From contig JAJCXR010000065.1 of the NCBI GenBank assembly GCA_029263315.1, forward strand, positions 62,001 to 126,000: a DNA stretch of 64,000 nt, written 5' to 3'. Position numbers and translations under genes: made by a program. A model generated the notes under the pieces. It was not told the DNA's origin, did no database searches, and saw only the letters and a program-made list of their open reading frames with translations. Position 1 is the stretch's first letter. Every line of letters begins with the position of its first letter. The DNA comes from Acidobacteriota bacterium (GTDB lineage Bacteria > Acidobacteriota > Thermoanaerobaculia > Multivoradales > J023). This document shows, piece by piece, positions 14,377 to 18,112 of this stretch.

Positions 14377-16194
14377 TCAGGAGTCGCTTTCCCACCCAGC
14401 GACATTCTTGGAGTTGCCTTGTTTGATCAGACTCTCGAAGCGCTGCAGCAGGGGGGACGGCTCGGACGGATCGATGCGGGCGTCGATGATGACCGGCACC
14501 TCGGACTTCATGGCGGTGCTCAAAACCTCTTCGATGTCGGCCTCTTTGTCGATCCGCAAACCCTTGGCACCCAGAGCGCCGGCCATGGCGACGAAATCGA
14601 CCCGCGGAAAATGGACGTTGGCGTTGGTCAGGCCGAGGGCCTTGTGGCCGTCTCGGCACATGCCGTAGGCGGCGTCGTTGAGCACCAACCAAACCGCCTT
14701 GGCACCGTACTGGACGGCAGTGCTGACTTCGGAATTCATCAGCATGGAGCCATCTCCCACCACCGCCAGGGCCTTGTCGCCTCGGCTCAGGGCCGCTCCG
14801 ACGACACCGGCGGCGGCGTGACCCATGGAGCCGAAGAGCGTGCTGACCCGGTAGCGGCCCGCCTCGCGAAAACGTAGGTAGTGGTTGCACCATGCAAACG
14901 AGTTGCCACATTCGGCCAAAACCACCGCGTCGCTGTCCTCCACCACCTGGCGCTGCAAGGCGTTCATTAGGGCTTGGGGACGTACTGGGCCCTCTTGGCG
15001 CAACTCGATGGCGGGCGTGGTGGGAACCCTCTTGCGGCGGCGCATCTTGCTCTTGCGGTGAGTTTCGATGTCGATGGGTTGCTCCTGGGCCTGATTGGGG
15101 AAATAGCGCAACAAAGCATCCAGGAATTGACCGACCTCCGATTGAATGGCCAGGGTCTTGGCGTCGGGGAAAGCCGTTCCGGGGACTTCAGGGTCGATGT
15201 CCACATGCAGGAACCCTTCACTGGGCACCATGTCGTTGTCCCAGAACGAAGTGGCTTCTCCGAGTCGAGATCCCAAGACGAGGATCCGCTGCGGCGCTTC
15301 GGCCACCATGTGTTGGGTGACCTGATCGTGACCACCGAGGCCGGTGACCCCGAGGTAGTTGCGATGGTCCTCCGGCATGATGCCCTTGCCGCGGGGTGAG
15401 CAGAAGACTTTGGCGCCGGAGCGTTCTGAGAGCAGGCGGACCTTTTGGGCCGCTTGGGTAGCACCAAATCCTGCCCAGATGGCAAACGAGCCAGGTTTCA
15501 ATTGACGAGCACAGAAGGCGATATCGTCTTCTGAGATGGCGGGGGCCATCAGGTGCATCGGACGCTGGACGTCACGCTCGTCAAAGCGCTGGGATTGGAC
15601 CCCCATGGGCAGGCTGACATGGGCCACAAAACCACCGGGTTTGGCCAAACCCAGACTCAAGCGGCGCAGGACCTCAGGCAACTCGGCCGGGTGCTCCATG
15701 CGAAGCGCAAAATCGAAGATCGGACCCTTGGTGAAGAGGCCGTCTTGGGGCATGGTGTAGGAGCTTGTCTCCTGGGTCGCCCAACGTCCACGTTGCGGGG
15801 AGCTGGTGGATCCGGAGATGAGAATGACCTTGGCACCTTCCCAGCGGGCCGCGGTCAGACCGGTCAGCGAATTGAGTAGGCCCGGACCGGTGGTGGCGAA
15901 GACGACGGTTGGTTTGCGCCGGGCGAAATAGGCCTCGGTGGCGGCGAAGGCTGCTCCGGTCTCGTGTCGAAAATGATGCAACGCGATGCTGCTCTCGGCC
16001 AGGGCGTCGAAGAGCAGTGCCACGGCTCCCCCACTGATTCCGAAGGCTTGCTCAACCCCCAAGCCGGCCAGTTGCTCCACCAAGGTGCCGACGACGGTGG
16101 TGTTCTTGCCGCGGCGTGGGACTGTTTCTGGGGCGATCGTGGTTTGGGGTTCGCGGACTTCGTGATGTGCCATTTTTTCAGCCAACTTGAGCAT
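14377..16194 (-). CDS. ThDP-dependent enzyme, acetolactate synthase-like
   Basis: A thiamine-diphosphate enzyme (605 aa from this start) with the three-domain acetolactate synthase/decarboxylase layout. The Pyr domain carries the catalytic glutamate in HHFRHETGAAFAATEAY; a central domain (about GSFAIWAGFGATQAAQ) and a PP domain with VVGDGSMLMNSE, then VWLVLNDAAYG, complete it. It probably decarboxylates a 2-oxo acid and may ligate the product to a second carbonyl; the substrate is unknown. The start at ATG 16194 is favoured by GAGGAAGG 5 nt upstream, so the ORF-track start at 16287 is rejected. A strong promoter overlapped by a TetR-like operator lies about 250 bp upstream and a second operator lies in the leader. 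No regulatory subunit (IlvN) is adjacent, which argues against ordinary branched-chain synthesis. Confidence 0.85.
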   Translation of the reverse strand: MLKLAEKMAHHEVREPQTTIAPETVPRRGKNTTVVGTLVEQLAGLGVEQAFGISGGAVALLFDALAESSIALHHFRHETGAAFAATEAYFARRKPTVVFATTGPGLLNSLTGLTAARWEGAKVILISGSTSSPQRGRWATQETSSYTMPQDGLFTKGPIFDFALRMEHPAELPEVLRRLSLGLAKPGGFVAHVSLPMGVQSQRFDERDVQRPMHLMAPAISEDDIAFCARQLKPGSFAIWAGFGATQAAQKVRLLSERSGAKVFCSPRGKGIMPEDHRNYLGVTGLGGHDQVTQHMVAEAPQRILVLGSRLGEATSFWDNDMVPSEGFLHVDIDPEVPGTAFPDAKTLAIQSEVGQFLDALLRYFPNQAQEQPIDIETHRKSKMRRRKRVPTTPAIELRQEGPVRPQALMNALQRQVVEDSDAVVLAECGNSFAWCNHYLRFREAGRYRVSTLFGSMGHAAAGVVGAALSRGDKALAVVGDGSMLMNSEVSTAVQYGAKAVWLVLNDAAYGMCRDGHKALGLTNANVHFPRVDFVAMAGALGAKGLRIDKEADIEEVLSTAMKSEVPVIIDARIDPSEPSPLLQRFESLIKQGNSKNVAGWESDS

Positions 16195-16199
16195 GCTAA

Positions 16200-16207
16200 C
16201 CTTCCTC
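16200..16207 (-). promoter_or_regulatory. Ribosome binding site of the ThDP enzyme
   Basis: On the minus strand, GAGGAAGG precedes the ATG at 16194 by 5 nt. It decides the start. Confidence 0.7.
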
Positions 16208-16215
16208 GGGCGCCA

Positions 16216-16233
16216 ACCAAACGGTCGGTAGAA
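16216..16233. promoter_or_regulatory. TetR-like operator, copy 2
   Basis: ACCAAACGGTCGGTAGAA differs by one base from the copy at 16431-16448. It lies 22 bp before the start codon of the ThDP enzyme, inside its leader. Confidence 0.6.
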
Positions 16234-16430
16234 ATGTCGTCGATACCACTTGCAGCCACTGCCGAAGACATCGGCCAATAGATCCAACGTAGGCTAAGAG
16301 AAGTAAGGGACGAACCAAGCGAACTCTGAGGCGGTTCGGAGCAAGTGCGAGAGTCTAGCTTGCAAGGCTACCGGCTGTTGTCTTGCCTCACCCCGCGGAT
16401 TGAGGGGCGACTGGACTTGCACTGGTTTCG

Positions 16431-16448
16431 ACCGAACGGTCGGTAGAA
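16431..16448. promoter_or_regulatory. TetR-like operator, copy 1
   Basis: ACCGAACGGTCGGTAGAA contains the dyad ACCGA...TCGGT typical of TetR-family operators. It overlaps the -10 element of the minus-strand promoter at 16445-16472, the expected position for repression. No TetR gene is in the window. Confidence 0.65.
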
Positions 16449-16472
16449 TACCATTCAGCCGGTCTGTGTCAA
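16445..16472 (-). promoter_or_regulatory. Strong sigma-70 promoter for the ThDP enzyme
   Basis: On the minus strand, TTGACA (16467-16472), a 16-nt spacer and TATTCT (16445-16450) form a near-consensus promoter reading toward the ThDP gene. The implied leader is about 240 nt and contains the second operator. Confidence 0.65.
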
Positions 16473-16640
16473 GGGCATTCTGTCTGCCCATGAGGTGGGC
16501 GCCAGAAACACTCCGCTGCATTTTCGACCACTGCGTCGATATGTGAATGATTCGCAGGGTCTTGCAGCTCATCGGTGCGGAGGAATCGCCCATGATTTGC
16601 ATTTCCGCCCCCGGTGTCTGCCGGGGTAGCAGCTCTTCGA

Positions 16641-16667
16641 TTGAGTGGGTCATCACCATTGTAGAAT
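16641..16667 (+). promoter_or_regulatory. Possible promoter for the RibD-C-like gene
   Basis: TTGAGT, a short 15-nt spacer and TAGAAT lie about 42 bp before the ATG at 16709. The spacer is shorter than ideal. Confidence 0.25.
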
Positions 16668-16708
16668 GCCTCATCTGCCTTACAAAGCAGATTACGCATT
16701 GGAATCAG

Positions 16709-17515
16709 ATGGGGTTCGTGGGAGGTCGTGTGCGTCGAGACGATGAGATTCTAGGCTTGGAAACCGGGGCGGGGGTCGCCGCTGCCGCGGCTCGGATGTT
16801 CGATCTCGCAGGACCCCTGCGAGGTGTTCTACATGGTACCTCACTATGGAACGCCGGGGCTGGAATGTTGACCACCCTGGCGATCAACGAGCATTCGCCG
16901 TCCTGCCATCACGATTTTTTTGCCCTCAACTATCTACGGGCGAGCGCCGACGCCATCATCACGACCGGTAAGATTCTCCGGTGTGAGCCCCAGTTGGTGC
17001 ATTGTTTGGCCGGCCCCGGGCAACAATCGGAGGCCCTGGCGGATTATCGCCGCCGGATCTTGGGCAAGACAACGCCTCCGGTGACCCTGGTACTGACCTC
17101 CGGAGAGGGGTTGGACCTGGAGCATCCGGTGCTGCATTCCTGGACGCGACCTTTGGTCTACACCACCCATGACGGGCATTGGGCCTTGGACAGCCGGGCG
17201 GCCGACTGCGGTGTGGAGGTGATCGCCGACACGGAGCCCAGTCTGCAACGCGCCATCACCCTGCTGAGACGTGAGTTTGGAGCCGCTACGATCGTCATCG
17301 AAGCGGGACCAAGCACCTCGCGACAGCTCTACGAACCTCCGGCGGTAGACCACCTCCTGCTGTCGTTGTTCCAAGGCCCAAAGCTCCCGGCACAGGCCGA
17401 GGGAGGACATTTCTCGACGTTCTCCCGCCTGCGGACACAATTTGCCCAGGCGACGGAGGGAAGTGCGATCTCGACGCCGGACGGTGACTGGTTTTTCCAG
17501 CGTTTCAGCCGTTGA
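16709..17515 (+). CDS. RibD C-terminal / dihydrofolate reductase-like protein
   Basis: A 268-aa protein whose core resembles the RibD C-terminal reductase fold. LTTLAINEHSPS is followed by NYLRASADAIITTGKILRCEP (compare the family pattern HxLRaxaDAilvGxgTvl). Near the end come IVIEAGPSTSRQLYEPPAVDHLLLSLFQGP, the usual ExGPxxxxxLxxxxLVDExxL element. No RibD deaminase domain is present and no other riboflavin gene is nearby, so a reductase for another NAD(P)H-dependent step is likely. The ORF track starts at 16547, but those 54 residues look non-coding; the ATG at 16709 is preferred although its Shine-Dalgarno is weak. It diverges from the ThDP gene and converges, 3 bp apart, with the V4R-like gene. 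Confidence 0.6.
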   Translation: MGFVGGRVRRDDEILGLETGAGVAAAAARMFDLAGPLRGVLHGTSLWNAGAGMLTTLAINEHSPSCHHDFFALNYLRASADAIITTGKILRCEPQLVHCLAGPGQQSEALADYRRRILGKTTPPVTLVLTSGEGLDLEHPVLHSWTRPLVYTTHDGHWALDSRAADCGVEVIADTEPSLQRAITLLRREFGAATIVIEAGPSTSRQLYEPPAVDHLLLSLFQGPKLPAQAEGGHFSTFSRLRTQFAQATEGSAISTPDGDWFFQRFSR

Positions 17516-17518
17516 GAC

Positions 17519-18112
17519 TCACCATCGAAGATGGTAGTCACAGCTCGTGTGGCCATGCTTTTTACATTGTCCGGGAGGCGCTTCGTGCTGTAGATCGACG
17601 AGGGACTCGCAGGAAGCGAAGCGGGTGGCGAGGGCGCTCAGCAGACCGCGTTCGAAATCACAGGGGTAGGGGGTCTGACAGATAACGAAACCGGAACGCA
17701 GACCCGTCGGCCGGAAGCTGTAGGAGCCCGCCTCGCCCCCTCGGTGGGTTGACTTGTAGGCTTCGTCGAGCTCTAGAAGAACGGCATCGACGCTGTGCAA
17801 GCCGGGGCGGTAGTTGGCCTGACGCGGGATTTGTCGGCCGATCTGGGAGACGGTGCTGGGCCCGACCTCCTCGGCCAGGGTAGCGAAGGCGTCGAGCCAT
17901 GCTTGCTGTGGGTACCACAGGTGCTGTTGGGGCTCCGAGATGCCATGCCGGTCCAGAATCTGGAGGGCAAGGCCTTTGAAGGCACCCATGGCGTGAACCA
18001 CTGAGAGCACGACATCCCCCAGAACCTCGACACTGGGCTCGAATGCTTTGAATTCCGTCACTTGACCTCCAAGCACCGTGACTTCTTGCGCTGCGGCTGG
18101 CACCGTTTGCAT
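17519..18112 (-). CDS. V4R/DUF2378-like small-molecule sensor domain protein
   Basis: A single-domain protein of 197 aa. Residues about 25-60 form the helical start (VVHAMGAFKGLALQILDRHGI). The C-terminal part has FVICQTPYPCDFERGLLSALATRF and the closing pattern CKKHGHTSCDYHLRW, a CxxxGxxxCxYxxxW signature. This is characteristic of 4-vinyl-reductase-like (V4R) or related sensor domains that bind small hydrophobic ligands or metal. No DNA-binding or output domain is attached. A GTG at 18061 preceded closely by GGAGG is an alternative start. With the neighbouring reductase and ThDP enzyme it may belong to one uncharacterised pathway; that link is an inference from position. Confidence 0.55.
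   Translation of the reverse strand: MQTVPAAAQEVTVLGGQVTEFKAFEPSVEVLGDVVLSVVHAMGAFKGLALQILDRHGISEPQQHLWYPQQAWLDAFATLAEEVGPSTVSQIGRQIPRQANYRPGLHSVDAVLLELDEAYKSTHRGGEAGSYSFRPTGLRSGFVICQTPYPCDFERGLLSALATRFASCESLVDLQHEAPPGQCKKHGHTSCDYHLRW

Follow-up and report, generated by a model that had tools for sequence, protein, structure and literature searches.

Two almost identical 18-bp words, one at the promoter and one in the leader of a gene for a thiamine-diphosphate (ThDP) enzyme, raise the question of whether this gene is controlled by a TetR-type repressor and, if so, by which one and together with which other genes. The window, i.e., the whole stretch of 64,000 nucleotides analysed, carries the following features at this locus:

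16431-16448, minus strand: predicted operator 1, TTCTACCGACCGTTCGGT (ACCGAACGGTCGGTAGAA on the plus strand)
16216-16233, minus strand: predicted operator 2, TTCTACCGACCGTTTGGT (ACCAAACGGTCGGTAGAA on the plus strand), in the leader just 5' of the ribosome-binding site
16445-16472, minus strand: promoter of the ThDP gene, TTGACA-N16-TATTCT, with the same architecture in relatives
16200-16207, minus strand: ribosome-binding site GAGGAAGG, 5 nt before the ATG
14377-16194, minus strand: ScyA-related thiamine-diphosphate carboligase, 605 aa, ATG at 16194
16547-17515, plus strand: RibD_C-like gene, oriented divergently to the ThDP gene, its actual start probably lying further downstream (e.g., at 16709)

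Read directly, the two 18-mers lie at these positions and differ by a single base, as originally predicted, and their similarity stops at the 18-mer boundary. The minus-strand promoter is also present as claimed (TTGACA at 16472-16467, a 16-nt spacer and TATTCT at 16450-16445); TG precedes its -10 element and the hexamers match at 10 of 12 positions. The original prediction further had operator 1 overlapping the -10, which holds for the TTCT flank of the 18-mer but not for the 14-bp dyad (16431-16444), which abuts the hexamer and would span approximately -6 to +8. This 14-mer consists of two overlapping dyads, and two dimers may therefore bind it, as in QacR-like operators. The second site does lie in the leader shortly before the start codon, its dyad being 21 nt 5' of the ATG and adjoining GAGGAAGG.

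Searching the window for the 18-mer with up to three mismatches returned 3 matches (the two sites, and the opposite-strand reading of site 1) against 0.03 ± 0.17 expected from 100 shuffled windows, none of which gave 3. The 14-mer alone, at the same tolerance, was found 11 times against 7.1 expected, which is not significant, so the longer word and genome-wide tests matter. That the sites are products of chance or of repeat-element duplication, with no regulatory role, has a single point in its favour, namely that the likeness of the two copies ends with the 18-mer. This explanation is extremely improbable in view of the shuffle expectation, and it is already contradicted by the conservation of the sites across genera and by the occurrence of a site before a TetR gene, both described below.

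We then considered the genome containing the window (G000; 8.0 Mb in 67 contigs, approximately 92% completeness), whose contig C65 includes the window, using pattern searches with reversed-pattern controls. With up to two mismatches, the 18-mer occurred at only five places genome-wide, compared with one for the reversed control:

C65, the two window sites: before the ThDP gene
C50:175204: TetR gene promoter (the candidate repressor, C50:175430-176038)
C64:81098: S8 subtilase gene promoter
C50:5165: upstream of an orphan of 239 aa without a Pfam match

A -10-like hexamer (TATTCT or TATCAT) immediately precedes four of the five sites, and for three of these four TTGACA lies 16 or 18 nt upstream of it. 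The genome encodes nine TetR_N proteins, and only the gene on C50 has a site with at most one mismatch upstream; for the other eight, the best upstream matches had at least three mismatches to the 14-mer and at least four to the 18-mer. A rough estimate puts the chance of any of the remaining three close sites falling within 400 bp upstream of one of nine TetR genes at ~0.001. A repressor gene outside the window had been predicted, and a TetR gene preceded by the site had been named as the thing to look for. The C50 gene, on another contig, answers to both, and its site occupies the position that operator 1 has at the ThDP promoter.

The C50 promoter reads TTGACA-N18-TATTCT followed by ACCGACCGTTCAGT, and the site abuts the -10 as it does at the ThDP promoter. 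The encoded protein has an N-terminal TetR_N helix-turn-helix (PF00440, 44.1 bits, cut-off 24) and a C-terminal TetR_C_24 ligand domain (PF17932, 56 bits, cut-off 26.4). A dyad is found at the core promoter of both the TetR gene and the ThDP gene, as expected for a TetR-family repressor. In a tree of 22 related TetRs, the C50 protein fell in a ten-member clade (UFBoot 98, SH-aLRT 99) together with TetRs adjoining the ThDP gene in G003:C935, G004:C60 and G005:C28, within the ThDP-KASIII-TetR operons of G001:C229 and G006:C48, and near the ThDP gene in G006:C17. Members of this clade therefore stand in or beside a ThDP operon in five relatives (G001, G003, G004, G005 and G006). They have the recognition region DLTKGGLYYYIKGK in common (LTKGGLYYYIKGK, apart from one end residue in some), and at the promoters of the C50 orthologues of G003 and G004 TTGACA-N18-TATTCT followed by ACCGACCGGTCAT is retained. 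Two observations count against the assignment to C50: in this genome it is encoded away from the ThDP gene, and the self-operators of the TetRs encoded close to ThDP genes in G003, G004 and G006:C17 are ACCGACTGGTTGGT, unlike the sites at ThDP promoters. The linkage seen in relatives between this type of repressor and the ThDP gene is thus absent from G000, but the repressor gene still bears the shared site.

The ThDP promoter might instead be governed mainly by another TetR, acting by itself or through cross-talk, the chief candidate being the paralogue on C14 (41% identical), which represents the sister clade in this genome. Its own ACTTACCGACCGGTAAGT-like operator has the ACCGACCG half in common with the ThDP site, and related Thermus regulators are known to have sites in common (PMC7022988). 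However, the recognition region of the sister clade is TKPGLYYYVKGK (MTKPGLYYYVKGK or LTKPGLYYYVKGK among its members), no member turned up next to a ThDP gene, and the clade (L101:8013-8704; L038, L044-L048) has a distinct, conserved self-operator of the form ACTTACCGGTCGGTAAGT or close to it, kept at the promoter in seven of seven family genomes. We regard control by such a paralogue as very unlikely and retain the C50 protein as the candidate.

Conservation of the site in relatives, on which the original prediction also depended, was examined in six further genomes of the family and borne out, the site being kept before ThDP genes of related genera. ScyA-like ThDP genes are present in five of the six, two copies each, with 61-67% identity; at this threshold, none was found in the rest of the order. 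Four relatives (G003, G004, G005 and G006) each contain the exact 18-mer a single time, always before a ThDP gene, and an exact 14-mer alone precedes two further ThDP genes (G003:C819 and G004:C257). Weaker forms precede both ThDP copies of G001 and the gene on G005:C28, the last with no good -10 in front, which counts against the repressor model. Genes neighbouring the ThDP loci mostly differ among relatives. Across the 71 genomes of the order, searches with at most one mismatch gave 12 matches in six of the seven family genomes, compared with 6 in the remaining 64, and none for the reversed control. Taken together, the 18-mer pair probably represents conserved binding sites of a TetR-type repressor.

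The relatives also bear on the role of operator 2, which might mark a second, weaker promoter under the same repressor, so that there would be two tandem repressed promoters rather than a road-block. In G003 and G004, two sites are separated by approximately 400 bp, and each of them is preceded by -35/-10-like hexamers of its own. Operator 2, on the other hand, has no recognisable promoter of its own, lacking a matching -35 (best match 6/12), and it lies downstream of operator 1, whereas the extra sites of G003 and G004 lie upstream. A second promoter is accordingly unlikely, and a road-block or an extra binding site in the leader is preferred.

S8 proteases appear to form a second target class, which had not been foreseen. 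Subtilase promoters with a site include that on C64 in this genome and, in G001, those on C321 (two sites) and C492, with a weaker one on C42. Another S8 gene, on G004:C25, has tandem sites upstream; at L103:7704-7947, in G004, two tandem copies lie between divergent genes for an S8 protease and a solute-binding protein. Most other S8 paralogues have no site, so control would be selective. The regulon subtilase (L020:5112-6944) ends in approximately nine tandem copies of NPWTDT/NPWVDT. No site was found near the V4R-like gene (17519-18112), which had been named as a target to check and was rejected. The divergent RibD_C-like gene, named likewise, may be a target of operator 1; no promoter was found for it. 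Elsewhere in the genome, a palindrome, TTCGACCGACCGGTCGGA, lies at C4:116737 (L021:6738), flanked by a P450 gene, which it precedes, and a divergently oriented gene of glycoside hydrolase family 2. Because it has three mismatches to the 18-mer it was left out of the core regulon, and it marks a possible further target.

The ThDP enzyme itself matches the ScyA-related model NF035927 with 778.6 bits (E 3e-234), below the cut-off of 1000 bits, making it a relative and not a member by that rule. Its N, M and C domains (PF02776, PF00205 and PF02775) all score above cut-off, and E78 and the GDGS...N motif are invariant in ten relatives. Both NF035927 and the model for ScyA of scytonemin biosynthesis (NF035923) match nearly the full length, but the enzyme falls under both curated cut-offs (1000 and 1020 bits) and no scytonemin cluster surrounds the gene. 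The closest ThDP structures are BbmA/CsmA, for which a literature search found nothing relevant. A second ScyA-like ThDP gene of this genome, on C45 (L097:8760-10625), is 66% identical, and the site was not found before it, which also counts against the repressor model.

A KASIII-like gene follows the ThDP gene in G003:C819, G006:C48 and G001:C229, and no KASIII-like neighbour was found beside the ThDP gene of the window. A KASIII-like gene also comes directly after the ThDP gene in Nostoc sp. FACHB-110 (L114:1250-4070), whose ThDP enzyme is 41% identical to the Acidobacteriota one, and in Shewanella (L115, L116) a more distant KASIII homologue lies a few kb from a ScyA-like ThDP gene. ScyA-like ThDP and KASIII-like genes thus constitute a widespread cassette. 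It is conceivable, though unlikely, that the ThDP enzyme, with its KASIII-like partner in relatives, produces a small acyloin-type signal that is itself the ligand of the co-encoded TetR, which would give a self-inducing chemical signalling circuit of Acidobacteriota with the subtilases in its output.

In the reading that we favour, one C50 repressor would control the ThDP gene, its own gene and the subtilase gene. The operator 1 dyad starts directly after TATTCT, so a bound dimer, or two, would cover the start point and block RNA polymerase. Operator 2 in the leader would probably add a road-block or raise local repressor occupancy, and the same TetR would repress its own gene and the subtilase gene via the -10-abutting site. 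Release would come through a small ligand, possibly an acyl-CoA or a compound made in the pathway to which the ThDP enzyme belongs. Taken jointly, these elements are highly probable, and the TetR interpretation of the original prediction is supported and for the most part survives.

The result is a previously undescribed, predicted TetR regulon whose mechanism would be ordinary TetR control, and its interest lies in the target set. The ScyA-like carboligase, its KASIII-like partner and S8 proteases of Thermoanaerobaculia are tied to one repressor and one operator, and repressor, site and targets offer a direct experimental handle on the product of the ThDP enzyme and on its timing.

Known regulators place this system among its counterparts. 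By sequence, the closest solved structure to the C50 protein is 5k7f (E 5e-24), which we take to be AibR of Myxococcus xanthus, and the relation to 3vpr, presumably PfmR, is at the family level only (E 6.8e-11). AibR, which acts on a different operon, is an isovaleryl-CoA regulator according to a title cited in PMC10636190, making an acyl-CoA-type ligand plausible for the C50 TetR. TTHB023 (PfmR), a TetR-family protein of Thermus thermophilus HB8, binds ACTACCGACCGTTCGG and CCGACCGTTCGGTAAG at TTHA0987 with Kd values of 0.65 and 4.7 nM, the two registers being offset by 4 bp, and has two sites before its own gene (PMC7022988). These overlapping sites together contain the same 14-mer as the ThDP operators, although TTHB023 targets mainly fatty-acid genes, whereas the predicted targets here are the ThDP carboligase and subtilases. 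In Burkholderia cenocepacia, negative control of paaA depends on the promoter dyad ACCGACCGGTCGGT and has been ascribed to PaaR (BCAL0210), a regulator of the TetR type (PMC2770484). That dyad lies between -35 and -10 in a phenylacetate pathway promoter, whereas the dyad here is directly downstream of -10. The match to the TTHB023 and PaaR sites indicates that the operator is of a recognised TetR type.
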